A program made the position numbers and the translations under genes. A stretch of 64,000 bases of DNA from positions 124,001 to 188,000 of the forward strand of contig WYAX01000020.1 of the NCBI GenBank assembly GCA_011525625.1, in the 5' to 3' direction. This DNA comes from Nitrospira defluvii. GTDB lineage: Bacteria; Nitrospirota; Nitrospiria; Nitrospirales; Nitrospiraceae. Below are positions 7,599-62,816 of this stretch, in pieces (position 1 is the first letter of the stretch; each line of letters opens with the position of its first letter). Under the pieces are notes generated by a model. The model had not been told where the DNA came from, made no database searches, and was given only the letters and a program-made list of their open reading frames with translations.

Positions 7599-7949
7599 TG
7601 GTGGAGGCGAGGGGAGTTGAACCCCTGTCCGAAGATCGTCGGCACATCGCATCTACATGTGTAGCCGATTCTTTAAGCTTCGCAGCGACCCACGCCTATC
7701 GGCCGGCTTAGAATCACCGCTAGCCCAGCATTGTCTCGCCCCTCGCCGCTGAGCACCGGCGTGGGACCAGTCCGCTGCATCGCGCCATTCCACCCCCGCG
7801 GACCTCAGATGGAACGACGTCTCAGCCTAAATTAGGCTGCGAGTGCCAGTTCTTGGTTGGCAGTTGCGTTTTTCCCGGAATTTTACGAGTTCCCGAGATC
7901 TCGACATGCAACGATGGCGTCAATATCCCCGTCGAAACCGGTCGCCCCC
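7599..7949 (-). ncRNA. ssrA: Transfer-messenger RNA (tmRNA)
   Basis: The 5' end GGGGGCGACCGGTTTCGACG (from 7949) and the 3' end, GGTTCAACTCCCC followed by CGCCTCCACCA (ending 7599), are diagnostic of tmRNA. The terminal segments pair as a 7-bp acceptor stem (GGGGGCG with CGCCUCC) before A-CCA, and CCA is encoded. The tag frame reads from GCA at 7867 to TAA at 7832 and gives ATANQELALAA, whose ALAA end matches proteolysis tags in other bacteria. With SmpB (46512-46991) it rescues stalled ribosomes and marks the nascent chains for degradation. A palindromic repeat starts only 5 bp upstream of the 5' end. Confidence 0.96.
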
Positions 7950-7953
7950 TAAT

Positions 7954-8075
7954 CAGAATGTTGATAAAGGCCTCCAGCTTTGTTCTCGCATCGCTCAACA
8001 CCTCGACCTACTGAATAGTAGGCCTCGGCCTTTCGCTCGCTGCAGCCTCGCTGAGAGGCCTTTCTGAACATTCTG
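7954..8075. repeat. Palindromic intergenic repeat, copy A
   Basis: About 122 bp forming an imperfect inverted repeat. The outer arms are CAGAATGTT...AAAGGCCTC and GAGGCCTTTCTGAACATTCTG; a small inner hairpin is CCTACTgaatAGTAGG. It shares the arm theme CCAGCTT.GTTCTCGC and the right arm GCTCGCTGC.GCC with copies at 11971, 50621 and 62424. It abuts the 5' end of ssrA, so it must contain or displace that gene's promoter. Confidence 0.75.
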
Positions 8076-8138
8076 GAAGACATCTACTGTTTTCTTAGAT
8101 ACTCATCTTATCGCATGGATCAAGGGGAAGCCAGCCCC

Positions 8139-8157
8139 GGAGTTCTTCCACAACTCC
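8139..8157. promoter_or_regulatory. Inverted repeat GGAGTT-N7-AACTCC
   Basis: A perfect 6-bp inverted repeat with a 7-bp spacer in the long gap before the wHTH-ATPase gene. It could be an operator or a weak hairpin. It is not followed by a T-run on either strand. Confidence 0.35.
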
Positions 8158-8192
8158 GAACTCTTCTTATCCAACATCATTCTGGGCATAGA

Positions 8193-8234
8193 TTGACAAT
8201 TGCAATGTCTACACATTGACAATACCTTGACAAT
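8193..8234 (+). promoter_or_regulatory. Three direct TTGACAAT repeats before the wHTH-ATPase gene
   Basis: TTGACAAT occurs at 8193-8200, 8216-8223 and 8227-8234, with start-to-start distances of 23 and 11 bp, about two and one helical turns. This phasing is typical for cooperative binding by a dimeric or multimeric regulator. They lie 17 bp upstream of the GTG start of a gene with an N-terminal winged HTH, so autoregulation is likely (inference). Each TTGACA could also serve as a -35 element. Confidence 0.6.
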
Positions 8235-8250
8235 GTGACACCGTCGTTAC

Positions 8251-9285
8251 GTGGGTCCCAAGCAGAAAATCCTGGCGTTTCTCGCACGGAGAGCCTCGGC
8301 TACGGGGGGAGAGCTCCGTGAACACCTCGCTCTCAGTCGGCAGGCCATGAGCCTCCATCTGCGCAGCCTGCTCGAAACACACCAGATCGTCCGATTGGGA
8401 ACAACCCGGGGCGCTCGCTATAGCTTGGCAGGAAAAGCCGAGAAGCCGGCCACGATTGCGAGGCTCCTCCCAATCCGCGACTGCGATGAGGATCGCGTAT
8501 GGAACCAGCTTGCGGTGCAACTGAACCTTGAGCGCGTGCTGAGACCTAACGTGCTGGCCATCGTTCGATATGCCTTCACGGAAATGCTCAACAACGCGAT
8601 CGATCATTCACAGGCGGAACGTTGTTCCATACGATTCACTGTGACGTCGGGTTTCGTCAGTTTCGACATCCGTGATGCCGGTATCGGCCTGTTCCATTCC
8701 ATCGCGACCAAGCATAGCTTGCCTGACGAAGAGACAGCCTTGGTCGAACTGCTGAAAGGCAAAACCACCACGATGCCGGAGGCCCATGCAGGGGAAGGGA
8801 TCTTTTTTACCTCCCGCATCGGTGACGCCTTCACCGTGCGCTCTCATCGCATACAGATGGAATGGAAGCGCGCCAAGCACGACGTCTTCGTGTCTCAACA
8901 GCGGCACCTCGCCGGAACAGCCATCCACTTCACCGTTCACCGCAGTGCCCGTCATAAGCTGGAAGAGGTGTTCGGTGAGTTTGCCCCAGCGGAATATGAC
9001 TTTCAGTTCCAGAAAACCAGAGTGTTCGTGAAACTCCTTCGGCACGATTACGTCTCTCGATCGGAGGCAAAACGTCTGCTGGCCAATCTGGAGAAGTTCA
9101 GAGAAATCAGCCTCGATTTTCGTGACGTACGCTCCGTGGGACAGGGATTTGCGGATGAAGTGTTTCGCGTGTTCGCCAGTCGCCACCCTGGCATCATGAT
9201 CCACCCTGAGCACGCCAGTCCTCCCGTCCTCGCCATGATCAAACACGTCCGCCCCGTGACTCCCTCCACGACTCCCTCTCAGTAA
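8251..9285 (+). CDS. wHTH - HATPase (GHKL) - STAS-like DUF4325 regulatory protein
   Basis: 344 residues from a GTG; the upstream stop leaves no other start. Domain order: winged HTH (about 3-60, LREHLALSRQAMSLHLRSL), a GHKL ATPase of the anti-sigma/histidine-kinase type (N-box EMLNNAIDHS 111-120, G1 DAGIGLF 142-148, G2 HAGEGIFFTSRI 179-190), and a C-terminal STAS-like DUF4325 (about 254-310, LDFRDVRSVGQGFADEVFRVF). No phospho-acceptor His or transmembrane segment is seen, so it is a soluble regulator combining DNA binding, ATP binding and a partner-switch-like module in one chain. The target is unknown; three TTGACAAT repeats lie just upstream. No ribosome site is visible. Confidence 0.85.
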   Translation: MGPKQKILAFLARRASATGGELREHLALSRQAMSLHLRSLLETHQIVRLGTTRGARYSLAGKAEKPATIARLLPIRDCDEDRVWNQLAVQLNLERVLRPNVLAIVRYAFTEMLNNAIDHSQAERCSIRFTVTSGFVSFDIRDAGIGLFHSIATKHSLPDEETALVELLKGKTTTMPEAHAGEGIFFTSRIGDAFTVRSHRIQMEWKRAKHDVFVSQQRHLAGTAIHFTVHRSARHKLEEVFGEFAPAEYDFQFQKTRVFVKLLRHDYVSRSEAKRLLANLEKFREISLDFRDVRSVGQGFADEVFRVFASRHPGIMIHPEHASPPVLAMIKHVRPVTPSTTPSQ

Positions 9286-11949: not shown

Positions 11950-11970
11950 TCACCGATCTAGCAAGAGGCG

Positions 11971-12076
11971 GAAAAAGTCCGCCAGCGGCGTTCTCGCGGC
12001 ACTCAGAGGCTCACCGTACGGCGTGAGTACGATTCGCCTCTTCGCTTGCTGCGGCCTTGCTGGACGGCCTTTTGCG
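11971..12076. repeat. Palindromic intergenic repeat, copy B
   Basis: About 105 bp downstream of the peroxidase gene. The left arm GAAAAAGTCCGCCAGCGGCG continues into TTCTCGCGGC; the right arm is TTGCTGCGGCCTTGCTGGAC followed by GGCCTTTT. Folding the arms pairs AAAAAG.CCG.CCAGC with GCTGGACGGCCTTTT. It shares GTTCTCG and GCGGCCTTGCTGGA with copies C and D. Confidence 0.72.
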
Positions 12077-12106
12077 CATCTTGTGGGTGAGACCTTTGAC
12101 TGCCTC

Positions 12107-23763: not shown

Positions 23764-24201
23764 CTACTCTCCATACCGGTCCATCCACTTGCGGATATGC
23801 TCCACTGCTTCCGCCTTCTGTTCCGATTTGAGGGTCGCGTGCCACTCCGTCACCTTAGGCAATACACGCTGCATGACGCGCTTCTGCTCGGCTTGGTGAC
23901 GATCCATCAGTTGCGTCAGCTTGGCCTGGTCCAGCCGGTCGCCCTTCACCTGAGCGATCACCTCCTCCATGATCCCTTTGTGCTCCTGCTGCGATTCGGC
24001 ACGAGCCGCCACCATTTCGTCTCTGACGGCCGTCAACTTCGCCTTCTGCTGATCATCGAGGTCCAAGTGTTTGGCGATCTTGCTCGTCATCCAATCCGCT
24101 CGCTCCGCCGGCGTATGGTGGCGATGACACCCGGCGCCCACCAACGCCCCCGCCAGAACCAGCGCCCCGATCGCGACCCGAACCGTATGCCGCATCTTCA
24201 T
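23764..24201 (-). CDS. Spy/CpxP-like periplasmic lipoprotein, copy 1
   Basis: 145 residues. Lipoprotein signal with lipobox LVGAGC (Cys25), then HRHHTPAERADWMTSKIAKH, a long amphipathic helical region (LDLDDQQKAKLTAVRDEMVA) and a repeated helix ending in EHIRKWMDRYG. Spy/CpxP proteins are ATP-independent periplasmic chaperones or sensors that tune envelope-stress signalling. A paralog at 32084-32524 is about three-quarters identical over its full length without gaps. AAGGAGGG precedes the ATG. Confidence 0.8.
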   Translation of the reverse strand: MKMRHTVRVAIGALVLAGALVGAGCHRHHTPAERADWMTSKIAKHLDLDDQQKAKLTAVRDEMVAARAESQQEHKGIMEEVIAQVKGDRLDQAKLTQLMDRHQAEQKRVMQRVLPKVTEWHATLKSEQKAEAVEHIRKWMDRYGE

Positions 24202-32083: not shown

Positions 32084-32524
32084 TCAGTGGTCTCCGTAGC
32101 GCTCCATCCACTTGCGAAGGTGTTCCACGGCTTCCGCCTTTTGTTCGGGCCGCAGGGTCGCATGCCATTCCGCCAGCTTGGGCAACACACGCTGCATCAG
32201 GCGGGTCTGTCCCGCTTGGTGCTGCTCAAACAAACGAGCCAGTTTGGCCTGATCCAGCCGGTCGCTCTGGACCTGAGCGATGACCTCTTCCATGGTCGCC
32301 TTGCGCTCCTTCTCCGACTCCGCGCGGACGGCCATCGCTTCGTCCTTCACGGCGGCCAGCTTGGCCTTCTGCCGATCGTCGAGGTCCAAGTGTTTGGCGA
32401 TCTTCCCCGTCATCCAGTCGGCTCGCTCCGTCGGCGTATGGTGTCGGTGACACCCGGCACCCACCAGCGCCCCGGCAATGACCAACGCCCCGATCGCCAC
32501 CCTGACCGTGCTCTGCATCTTCAT
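32084..32524 (-). CDS. Spy/CpxP-like periplasmic lipoprotein, copy 2
   Basis: 146 residues from ATG 32524 (AAGGAGGG upstream); an in-frame start 17 codons earlier lacks such a site. Lipobox LVGAGC at Cys25, then HRHHTPTERADWMTGKIAKH and the same amphipathic helices as copy 1 (23764-24201), about three-quarters identical in protein and close in DNA. It heads the HlyD-ABC operon. The duplicate pair brackets the whole envelope block and suggests either gene duplication or ectopic recombination. Confidence 0.82.
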   Translation of the reverse strand: MKMQSTVRVAIGALVIAGALVGAGCHRHHTPTERADWMTGKIAKHLDLDDRQKAKLAAVKDEAMAVRAESEKERKATMEEVIAQVQSDRLDQAKLARLFEQHQAGQTRLMQRVLPKLAEWHATLRPEQKAEAVEHLRKWMERYGDH

Positions 32525-48143: not shown

Positions 48144-50603
48144 TTACTCGCTCTCCTCGGGCACCCCGTCTTCGCGCTCGACGAGCCGTACCACCGCGAC
48201 CACGCGATCGTCATCACCATCCATGTCAAGCAGCCGAACGCCCTGCGTATTGCGCCCGATTTCACGAATGTCGTCGACCTTACAACGCAACACCTTCCCT
48301 TGGGCGGCCATCACCATGATTTCATCTTCGCCGCGCACCTGAAGGAATCCGACCGCGGGCCCGTTCCGCTCCGTGGTTTTGACACTGATGATGCCTTTCC
48401 CGCCTCGGCCCTGCACCCGATACTCGTTCACCGGTGTCCGCTTGCCGTATCCGCCCTCGGTGACGGTCAGAATGGCGGTCGTCGAGTCTGGAGTGATGGT
48501 CTCCATGCCGATGACCTCATCACCGGGCTCCAACGTGATCCCGCGCACCCCGTGAGCCGTCCGCCCCATGGCACGTACATCCTCTTCCTTGAATCGGATG
48601 GTAATGCCCTGTTTCGTGCCCAACAAAATTTCGCGTTGGCCGTCCGTCAGGTCCACCCCGATCAGTTTATCACCCTGATCGAGGGAGAGGGCAATGATGC
48701 CGCCTTGGCGCGGATTGCTGTAGGCCGACAATTCCGTTTTCTTGATGACACCCTGTTTCGTGCCCATGATCACGAAGCGATCGGTACGGAACTCTTTCAC
48801 CGGCAACGTTGCCGTGACCTTTTCGTCTTTCGCGAGCGCCAGCAGGTTGACCAGGGCCTTGCCCTTCGCAGCTCGGCTGGCTTCAGGAATTTCATGCACC
48901 TTGAGCCAATAGACTTTTCCCGCATCGGTGAAAAAGAGCAGGGAGTCGTGCGTGGAGGCCGTGAAGAGGGTTTCGACAAAATCCTCTTCCTTGATGCCCA
49001 TGGCGATCTTGCCCTTGCCGCCGCGGCGCTGGGCTCGATAGAGCGTGACCGCATTGCGTTTGATGTAGCCGGCATGAGAAATCGTCACAACCACTTCTTC
49101 TTCGGCAATCAGGTCTTCGAGCGTCAGTTCGGCTTCCTCCTTGACGATCTTGGTGCGCCGCTCGTCCTGATACTTCTCCTTGATCTCGATCAGTTCATCC
49201 TGGATGATCTTCCGCACCAAGGCCTCGCTGCCGAGCACCGAGCGCAGATACTCGATGGTCTTCAGCACTTCGCGGTACTCTTCCACAAGCTTGTCGCGTT
49301 CGAGCTGGGTGAGTCGCTGCAGCCGCATTTCCAGGATGGCATTGGCCTGAATCTCCGACAACCGGAACTGCTGCATCAGGCCCGTACGCGCCACATCCGG
49401 CGATTGCGACCGGCGAATCAAGGCGATCACGGCATCCAGATTGTCGAGCGCGATCTTGAGCCCTTCGAGAATGTGCGCGCGCTCCTCCGCCTTGCGCAGA
49501 TCGTAGGCAGTGCGTCGCACCACCACTTCGCGGCGATGCTCGACAAAGGCTTCCAGAATCCGCTTCAGGTTGAGCACTTCCGGCCGGTTGTTGACGAGCG
49601 CCAGCATGTTCACGCCGAAGGTCGTCTGTAACTGGCTGTGCTTGTAGAGATTGTTCAAGACCACGAGCGGAATCTCGTTTCGCTTCAGCTCGATCACGAC
49701 CCGGACTCCTTCGCGGTCGGACTCGTCACGGATATCGGAAATGCCGGTGACGCGGTCTTCCTGCGCCAAGTCGGCAATCTTCTCGATCAGCTTCGACTTG
49801 TTCACCTGATACGGAATCTCCGTGATGATGAGGCGCTCGCGATCGGTGCGTTCATCCGTTTCGATCGCGACCTTGGCCCGGACCGTCAGGAGCCCGCGTC
49901 CCGTCTCATACGCGTCCTTGATGCCGGCCGTGCCGTAGATGAAGCCGGCCGTCGGAAAGTCGGGCCCGGGAATTTTCTTCATCAGTTGCGCGATGGTGAC
50001 GTCGGGATTCTCCAGCAACAAGAGCAACCCCTCGATGACTTCACCCAGGTTGTGCGTCGGAATGTTGGTCGCATAGCCGACGGCAATGCCGCCCGCACCG
50101 TTCACCAGGAGGTTCGGCACCCTGGAGGGCAGCACCAGCGGCTCCACGCGCGACTCGTCGTAGTTGGGCCCGAAGTCGACCGTCTCCTTTTCGATATCCG
50201 CCAGCAGCTCTTCGGCCAGCTTCGTCAACCGGGCTTCGGTATACCGCATGGCGGCCGCTGCGTCGCCGTCCATGGAGCCATAGTTGCCCTGGCCGTCCAC
50301 CAGCATGTAGCGCATGTTGAAGTTCTGGGCCATGCGTACGAGCGTGTCGTAAATCGCGGAGTCGCCATGGGGATGGTAGTTACCCATGATTTCGCCCACG
50401 ATCTTGGCCGACTTGCGGTAGGGCCGGTTCGAGGCAAGCCCCATCTCGTTCATGCCGTGCAGAATGCGACGGTGCACCGGCTTCAATCCGTCCCGGACAT
50501 CGGGCAGCGCGCGACCGACGATCACGCTCATCGCGTAATCGAGGTACGACGAGCGCATCTCATCTTCGATCGCAATCTGGCCTAGTCGTTCATCTGGCGG
50601 CAT
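48144..50603 (-). CDS. gyrA: DNA gyrase subunit A
   Basis: 819 residues. Breakage-reunion domain with catalytic Tyr121 in AAAAMRYTEARL; the quinolone-resistance region reads HPHGDSAIYDTLVRMAQ with Ser82 and Asp86 at the sensitive-type positions. The C-terminal wrapping domain shows the GyrA-box region RVQGRGGKGI. GyrA cuts and rejoins DNA to add negative supercoils with GyrB. GGAGG before the ATG. A palindromic repeat copy lies between gyrB and gyrA. Confidence 0.98.
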   Translation of the reverse strand: MPPDERLGQIAIEDEMRSSYLDYAMSVIVGRALPDVRDGLKPVHRRILHGMNEMGLASNRPYRKSAKIVGEIMGNYHPHGDSAIYDTLVRMAQNFNMRYMLVDGQGNYGSMDGDAAAAMRYTEARLTKLAEELLADIEKETVDFGPNYDESRVEPLVLPSRVPNLLVNGAGGIAVGYATNIPTHNLGEVIEGLLLLLENPDVTIAQLMKKIPGPDFPTAGFIYGTAGIKDAYETGRGLLTVRAKVAIETDERTDRERLIITEIPYQVNKSKLIEKIADLAQEDRVTGISDIRDESDREGVRVVIELKRNEIPLVVLNNLYKHSQLQTTFGVNMLALVNNRPEVLNLKRILEAFVEHRREVVVRRTAYDLRKAEERAHILEGLKIALDNLDAVIALIRRSQSPDVARTGLMQQFRLSEIQANAILEMRLQRLTQLERDKLVEEYREVLKTIEYLRSVLGSEALVRKIIQDELIEIKEKYQDERRTKIVKEEAELTLEDLIAEEEVVVTISHAGYIKRNAVTLYRAQRRGGKGKIAMGIKEEDFVETLFTASTHDSLLFFTDAGKVYWLKVHEIPEASRAAKGKALVNLLALAKDEKVTATLPVKEFRTDRFVIMGTKQGVIKKTELSAYSNPRQGGIIALSLDQGDKLIGVDLTDGQREILLGTKQGITIRFKEEDVRAMGRTAHGVRGITLEPGDEVIGMETITPDSTTAILTVTEGGYGKRTPVNEYRVQGRGGKGIISVKTTERNGPAVGFLQVRGEDEIMVMAAQGKVLRCKVDDIREIGRNTQGVRLLDMDGDDDRVVAVVRLVEREDGVPEESE

Positions 50604-50620
50604 CTATCCTCCACGGCACG

Positions 50621-50738
50621 GATGCTGAAAATGGTCCCCAGCTTCGTTCTCGGCTCGCCAACTTCTCGATGTACCCCGAGGGTACACCTGCGGCGTCGGC
50701 GTCGCCTGCGGCCTTGCTGGATGACCATTTTGAGCATC
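50621..50738. repeat. Palindromic intergenic repeat, copy C (between gyrB and gyrA)
   Basis: 118 bp. Outer arms GATGCTGAAAATGGTC..CCAGC and GCTGGATGACCATTTTGAGCATC are complementary with few mismatches. Inner hairpin GTACCCcgaGGGTAC; right internal segment TGCGGCCTTGCTGGA. The best-preserved copy. Being in an operon gap, it is transcribed and would form a long RNA hairpin. Confidence 0.82.
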
Positions 50739-50785
50739 CTCTGTATCCACAAAAATAAGTTTTCGCGCCTGCGCGTAGGAGCTGG

Positions 50786-53260
<2,475 letters not shown>

Positions 53261-62364: not shown

Positions 62365-62423
62365 TCAGAGAGAGTAAATGCCATCCATATTCCTGGGAGC
62401 TTTCAACATCCTCTGACTTCACC

Positions 62424-62545
62424 GGTTGCTCAAACGGGTGGCCAGCAAGGGCGCAGGCGAGGAAAACACCGCAGGCGTACCCTCTGGGTACGTCGAGGAT
62501 TTTTTCGAGCTGAGAACGAAGTTGGTCGCCTGTTTCAGCAACCGG
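62424..62545. repeat. Palindromic intergenic repeat, copy D
   Basis: 122 bp. Outer arms CCGGTTGCTCAAACGGGTGG and CGCCTGTTTCAGCAACCGG are complementary with few mismatches; the inner hairpin is GTACCCtctGGGTAC as in copy C; GAGAACGAAGTTGG is the reverse complement of the CC.GCTTCGTTCTC segment of copy C. So copy D is inverted relative to C. Confidence 0.8.
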
Positions 62546-62546
62546 G

Positions 62547-62816
62547 TTAGAGTTCGCGGATGGCGCCTTGCAGGACGGTCATCTGGGTCATGGGGTCGCC
62601 GGAGGCTTGGAGCTCTGCGCGGATCTGTTCTTTGAGGTAGGCGGTGTAGCCGATTTTGTCGACGAGGAGGTCGAGGAAACGTTCGGAGGACAACAGGCTC
62701 TGCGCCTTCAGTTCGTCGAGGGTCTCGTCGCTCACCGGTACATAGCTGCTGCCGATGTGGAAAATGATGTTGTAGTGGCGATCCCGCCCGAGCCGTTCGA
62801 ACCGTAGTCCCTTCAC
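62547..62816 (-). CDS. Small protein of unknown function
   Basis: 89 residues from GTG 62816 (GAGGAAGG upstream). KGLRFERLGRDRHYNIIFHI, SYVPVSDETLDELKAQSLLS and LLVDKIGYTAYLKEQIRAEL. No family recognised; likely soluble alpha/beta. It follows the PII-like gene on the same strand, separated by a hairpin. Confidence 0.55.
   Translation of the reverse strand: MKGLRFERLGRDRHYNIIFHIGSSYVPVSDETLDELKAQSLLSSERFLDLLVDKIGYTAYLKEQIRAELQASGDPMTQMTVLQGAIREL

Follow-up and report, generated by a model that had tools for sequence, protein, structure and literature searches.

What are the long palindromes that lie in four gaps between genes of the window, i.e. the whole stretch of 64,000 nucleotides analysed here, and why do their arms still pair? 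Nitrospira oxidise nitrite and perform complete nitrification, and the hairpin in question is present in dozens of copies in nearly all of their genomes. The earlier note, made from the sequence alone, had described four copies with a common fold; all four are present, and each is a long imperfect hairpin of about 124 nt built to one common architecture. The outer arms of about 26 nt terminate in CCAGC/GCTGG, and are followed by an unequal internal loop, CGTTCTCG facing TGCGGCCTTG, inward of which lie a middle stem that varies, a second loop with CTCAA facing CCT(C/G), and an apical stem, CGTAC/GTACG. The apical GTACCC/GGGTAC pairing noted earlier is real and nearly invariant, and the four places stand, with the one correction that copy B, previously set at 11971-12076, was slightly short and is extended by the covariance model to 11961-12083. 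The features concerned are as follows.

7599 to 7949, minus strand: tmRNA gene adjoining copy A (Rfam RF00023, 181.5 bits)
7949 to 7952, plus strand: CTAA, the NTAR-type 5' flank of copy A, as read from the sequence
7953 to 8075, plus strand: copy A, hairpin-only, beginning directly after CTAA (covariance model, 105.6 bits)
11958 to 11961, plus strand: CTAG, the NTAR-type 5' flank of copy B
11961 to 12083, plus strand: copy B, hairpin-only, of the GCGGAAAAAGTCC arm type, with 5' flank CTAG (118.9 bits)
48144 to 50603, minus strand: gyrA, downstream neighbour of copy C (NCBIfam NF004043, 1252 bits)
50617 to 50741, plus strand: copy C, the hairpin in the gyrB-gyrA gap, with orthologs in 12 species (108.1 bits)
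50786 to 53260, minus strand: gyrB, upstream neighbour of copy C (NCBIfam NF011501, 1183 bits)
62422 to 62546, minus strand: copy D, hairpin-only, with an ortholog in N. defluvii (L387) (101.6 bits)
62547 to 62550, minus strand: CTAA, the NTAR-type 5' flank of copy D, which includes a stop codon

Copy A stops, on its left side, 3 nt short of the 5' end of the mature tmRNA, which is encoded on the opposite strand, so that any tmRNA promoter would have to be located within the hairpin or past it; a search of 7850-8350, covering the copy and its surroundings, gave no sigma-70-like promoter. The same place beside tmRNA is also occupied in three other species (L316, L322, L313). Copy D begins, at its 5' end, directly next to the TAA stop codon of a gene called upstream at 62547-62816 on the minus strand. 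At Rfam gathering scores the tmRNA is the sole match within the window, the hairpins belonging to no described Rfam family, and in the literature searched the hairpin family in Nitrospira is apparently undescribed; for N. moscoviensis, RepRanger gives REP counts only.

The earlier proposal of a dispersed family is borne out well beyond a handful of copies. About 80 members were found in the window's genome with the covariance model, whose matches number 94 places at E<=0.01, including a few palindromes matched on both strands and some weak fragments, and represent some 80-85 distinct copies; all 40 other Nitrospirales genomes searched also gave matches. The model was built from 38 seed copies pre-filtered for pairing arms, which inflates the paired fraction. 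Two independent criteria, both applied genome-wide, gave 48 places in the window's genome by blastn with copy C as query, and 19 exact matches for the gapped pattern GTTCTCG-N30-60-GCGGCCTTGCTGG compared with 0 for a reversed control. N. defluvii (G023) has 120 matches at E<=1e-4, and among the matches listed the numbers range from 1-3 in some small Nitrospirales to at least 86 in several Nitrospira; the family amounts to about 80-120 copies per Nitrospira genome. A closed congener, G004, has only 2 copies and its relatives at least 37, which may reflect either loss or an ancestor predating the expansion. A scan of named genomes with a short pattern returned almost exclusively Nitrospira and Nitrospirales; four contigs of Nitrospirales or Nitrospirae with the short pattern pass the covariance model, and the seven non-Nitrospirota and three viral contigs that carry it fail.

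The nature of the mobile unit can be read from N. defluvii, where the sequence common to 20 near-identical copies extends well past the hairpin, to about 199 bp, and begins abruptly at its 5' edge. The intact unit consists of NTAR, CAGGNTGC(G/T)GAAAAAG, the hairpin (about 124 nt), about 60 nt, TTTTTCCGCANCCTG and the same NTAR again, with the right terminus, GAGTTTTTCCGCA(A/G)CCTG, lying about 76 nt past the hairpin in the N. defluvii units. Both ends are flanked by the same tetranucleotide, which varies among the copies of this genome (CTAG, TTAG, GTAG, ATAG, CTAA), and units of 196-203 bp are also present in many other species. Across all the sequences analysed, exact 4-bp duplications, mostly NTAR, flank 54 of 82 units, as compared with 24.9 (maximum 35) when left and right flanks were shuffled 2000 times. 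An empty site is provided by the counterpart (L109) of one unit (L214): once joined, the flanks of the unit give an ungapped alignment of 304 nt to it, with a single CTAG. The IS5-type right end and the NTAR duplication are present in all the sets of high-scoring, near-identical copies that were examined (in N. defluvii and G014).

A candidate source of transposase was found from pairs of the terminal sequence placed 1.3 kb apart. This autonomous element of about 1.3 kb has CAGGCTGCGGAAAAA ends, identical to the right end of the 199-bp unit, and between them encodes a transposase of 342 aa in which DUF772 and DDE domains are recognised (PF05598, 82 bits; PF01609, 48 bits). IS5-family elements with these ends occur in N. 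defluvii (L335), where the flanking duplication is TTAG, and in two other species (L336 and L344 in G001, L337 in G019), where all three relatives are flanked by CTAG, the duplications being exact in each. More distant relatives, with about 43% identity, have CAG(G/T)(C/G)TGTTGACAAAC ends and NTAR flanks that mostly match. IS5 itself is reported to duplicate Py-T-A-Pu, most often CTAG (PMC5493358). Since the unit duplicates NTAR and has the ends of an IS5 element, it is an IS5-type MITE with the palindrome as its left end, and the common ends indicate that an IS5-type transposase very probably moves the 199-bp units in trans into NTAR sites. Two observations count against this account, namely that no close relative of the IS5 transposase turned up in the window's genome at E<=1e-20 and that the autonomous element itself lacks the hairpin. 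On balance we consider it probable that the hairpin family is the left end of an IS5-type MITE of Nitrospira and its order, in which the hairpin has been kept after the right end was lost. The earlier note had seen no transposase genes in the copies; a link to transposons is nevertheless given by the terminal repeats and NTAR duplications that the family has in common with an IS5-group DDE element, and the window copies themselves cannot reveal the link because the right end has been lost in all four, copies A, B, C and D having neither a right end nor a matching 4-mer alongside and being remnants rather than complete units.

Such hairpin-only copies are the common state, the right end being absent, by the stricter criterion, in 104 of 156 copies, or about two thirds. 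They would descend from the 199-bp unit by later loss of the right end with the hairpin retained, a descent suggested by the common 5' junction and the hairpin. Target-site duplications, which the earlier note had considered, exist in the intact units and are not seen at the hairpin's 3' edge, where hairpin-only copies gave 3 matches with 4.6 expected; right ends matching each old copy's own left arm were also as frequent as in shuffles.

The 5' junction has a clear relationship with stop codons. Where the upstream gene is in sense, the element's 5' end lies at most 2 nt from its stop in most of 96 cases, and the element usually starts on the last base of that stop codon. The codon preceding hairpin-only copies (n=86) is TAG in 24, TAA in 6 and TGA in 3. 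The stop codon alone was rejected as the cause of the NTAG, TGA being rare (3 of 86) and the 4-mer duplicated; the rarity of TGA indicates that NTAG is the insertion target, rather than stop codons as such. Insertion at an NTAG stop would duplicate the stop and leave the protein intact, and so may be tolerated there. The claim that the palindromes always sit between genes is roughly right: of 156 copies in two genomes, 133 are clearly intergenic, 16 overlap a gene call made by a crude caller and 7 are at locus edges.

Considering our second question, why the arms still pair, the earlier observation that arms differ between copies and compensate within them is upheld, both across the family and in situ at one orthologous locus (below). 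The covariation score is 0.354, against 0.130 in shuffles and at most 0.106 in slid controls, and changes on both sides are seen at 26 of 33 pairs. Covariation by itself is no evidence of a functional RNA. Under selection on RNA, G-U pairs are better tolerated than A-C mismatches, and a tmRNA control, drawn from 23 of the genomes and processed in the same way, has 64 G-U and 12 A-C. The stems of the hairpin, over both genomes, have 140 G-U and 190 A-C, from which it follows that the GTTCTCG strand has no wobble preference and the other strand at most a weak one. The lack of a wobble preference points to constraint on DNA pairing, which is favoured over RNA, so that of the two kinds of folding previously offered as the object of selection it is the DNA half that survives. 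In DNA folding energy the complement strand is slightly more stable (-31.2 versus -29.4 kcal/mol).

A structured RNA on transcripts, acting as a 3'-UTR stabiliser, an attenuator or a bidirectional terminator, would fit the place directly after stop codons, the strong covariation with its conserved internal loops, and the conserved copy that lies 8-13 nt ahead of the gyrA start. We regard it as unlikely given the absent wobble preference on the sense strand, the absence of a T-tract past the hairpin, and an orientation that tracks the replication fork over the gene where the two differ (below). The numerous antisense and convergent copies also speak against it: the context of 133 copies in two genomes, as assigned by a simple and crude gene caller, is co-directional sense in 59, antisense in 34, convergent in 37 and divergent in 3.

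Constraint on the DNA can be followed at single loci. Comparison of flanks identified 30 places with a hairpin in both the window's genome and N. defluvii, of which about a dozen plainly hold the same copy and a similar number a different family member; in one pair (L190 versus L382) a new copy lies beside the surviving half of an old one, which shows that new copies land beside old ones. The place of copy C in the gyrB-gyrA gap is occupied in 12 Nitrospira species, shortened in two, and absent or reduced elsewhere; its absence from about ten congeners means that it is not essential. Among the 12 species its loops are 87.1% and its stems 85.8% identical, versus 61.5% at four-fold sites of gyrB/gyrA, and in ten species the element is 89.4% identical versus 65.3% for the adjacent spacer. 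These orthologs contain 15 double-changed stem cells, compared with 5.7 in shuffles and 0-3 when slid, and half-compensated states are also seen, L277 and L289 having AACATG facing CATTTT where L275 has AACATG facing CATGTT. Two further loci, L280 (1918-1983) and L281 (1390-1455), hold the gyrB-gyrA copy minus its centre, with both outer arms kept. Central deletion is typical of palindromes.

Two explanations that dispense with selection have to be weighed against these data. In the first, arm complementarity is mutational, arising by template switching within the palindrome or by exchange between copies, as might be read from two-sided changes without G-U intermediates, from the central deletions in L280 and L281 that spare the outer arms, and from the two species with different family members at one place. 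Arm correction should nevertheless erase the G-G mismatch that separates pairs 8 and 9 of the outer stem, yet this is kept in 132 of 160 copies, and the unequal loops likewise persist; together with conservation of the gyrB-gyrA copy in loops as well as stems and the half-compensated intermediates in L277 and L289, this makes a purely mutational origin doubtful. In the second, the copies are functionless, decaying MITE relics of which the model search picked the best preserved. Copy finding was indeed conditioned on a recognisable pairing hairpin, right ends and duplications have decayed, and copies have been lost in some lineages, but neutral decay is hard to reconcile with an element so much better conserved than its spacer and the four-fold sites, or with compensation in situ at gyrB-gyrA, and we think it improbable.

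A further property of the retained copies is their orientation relative to replication. Among the N. defluvii copies, those that lack the right end lie with the fork by 49 to 14 (p=1.1e-5), whereas those that have it are evenly divided at 12 to 13 (Fisher p=0.01 for the difference); in the full list of 101 matches, 71 are with the fork. On lagging-strand genes, old copies are antisense in 10 cases and sense in 2, so the fork is followed, on small numbers. A second genome, G001, in which the replichores were verified by GC skew, has 35 of 44 with the fork (p=1e-4). G009 was tried as a third genome and set aside: 29 of 58 copies there lie with the fork, and a patchwork GC skew prevents the assignment of replichores. 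This single contig (G009:C1) switches GC skew sign many times, pointing to an unusual assembly order or history. The fork bias was noticed post hoc, rests on two genomes, and has gene direction as a partial confounder; it may belong to the retained copies as such, or it may reflect a second mode of movement.

In retained copies the GTTCTCG strand is the lagging-strand template, and it is for this reason that binding at the single-stranded lagging-strand template is proposed. We infer that the retained copies have a function: what is conserved would be a Watson-Crick folded DNA strand, as hairpin or cruciform, in which the G-G mismatch and the two internal loops are kept, and the folded strand would probably be bound by a putative protein while the lagging-strand template is single-stranded.

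Strand bias of this kind also follows from the mechanism of IS200/IS605 elements (PMC5371812), and the earlier note had suggested looking for a REP-type transposase (RayT). On such a REP/REPIN-type reading, a RAYT or other HUH/Y1 transposase would excise the hairpin from, and insert it into, the lagging-strand template 3' of NTAG without duplication. NTAG does lie directly 5' of the hairpin, hairpin-only copies lack a 3' duplication, and the lagging-template orientation with conserved mismatch and loops resembles IS200/IS605-type ends (PMC5371812); moreover, genes next to a GTAG REP often take their TAG stop codon from it (PMC3733652). A RAYT origin is not supported by the distribution of the enzyme: no Y1_Tnp match was obtained in 18 of 41 genomes, among them four (G024, G009, G011, G005) in which the hairpin has at least 67 copies, and the single match in the window's genome is not flanked by copies. 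The near-identical sets examined in N. defluvii and G014 have instead an IS5-type right end and an NTAR duplication, the guide is NTAG rather than GT[AG]G, and the units are 124 nt rather than 20-65 nt, all of which leaves this reading little probability. A further idea is that the hairpin is an older, independent element, i.e. a single-stranded DNA structure on the lagging-strand template, recognised by a putative host or mobile protein and placed at NTAG stops without duplication, which IS5-type transposons later captured as their left end because its arms mimic terminal repeats; this we judge rather unlikely.

The IS5-type MITE, our preferred reading, agrees with IS5-family MITEs and the IS5 group in being a short non-coding unit with terminal inverted repeats in common with an autonomous IS5-family element, and in its 4-bp Py-T-A-Pu duplication, mostly CTAG. 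It differs in that the Nitrospira unit has a conserved, asymmetric 124-nt hairpin at one end that is unrelated to the parent's interior, and in that most copies are hairpin-only, order-wide and old. With GTAG REP/REPIN systems and their RAYTs the family shares palindromes scattered through intergenic DNA, an NTAG at the 5' foot, many copies per genome, the provision of stop codons and the shunning of divergent gaps, but the Nitrospira hairpin is six times longer and without RAYT linkage, and intact units are two-ended with a target duplication. Like IS200/IS605 ends and integron attC sites, it is an imperfect hairpin in lagging-template orientation whose mismatch and loops are conserved while the stem letters vary; unlike IS200/IS605 ends, it has no tyrosine HUH enzyme linked to it and its intact units behave as double-strand DDE elements, and inspection by eye found no GTTRRRY-like, attC-type end in the hairpins. 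ERIC, Correia (NEMIS) and RUP elements, also palindromic and MITE-like, are intergenic repeats of about 100-200 bp that in some cases lie beside essential genes; they presumably differ from the Nitrospira family in sequence, target site and parent IS family. Stop-codon-tolerant insertion, orientation with replication and a hairpin that is long-lived and covaries at the level of DNA come together in this one element, and the combination opens an old question to testing: are the dispersed palindromes of bacteria preserved for their DNA structure, or are they simply debris that decays slowly?

Two further repeats were also observed. Within the window, 23768-24067 and 32091-32390 form a 300-nt direct repeat, 77% identical, that lies within co-directional genes and is unrelated to the palindromes. 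Elsewhere in the same genome, hairpin units form a tandem array with a period of about 174 bp (L202 1501-1972; G000:C32:288250-288721).
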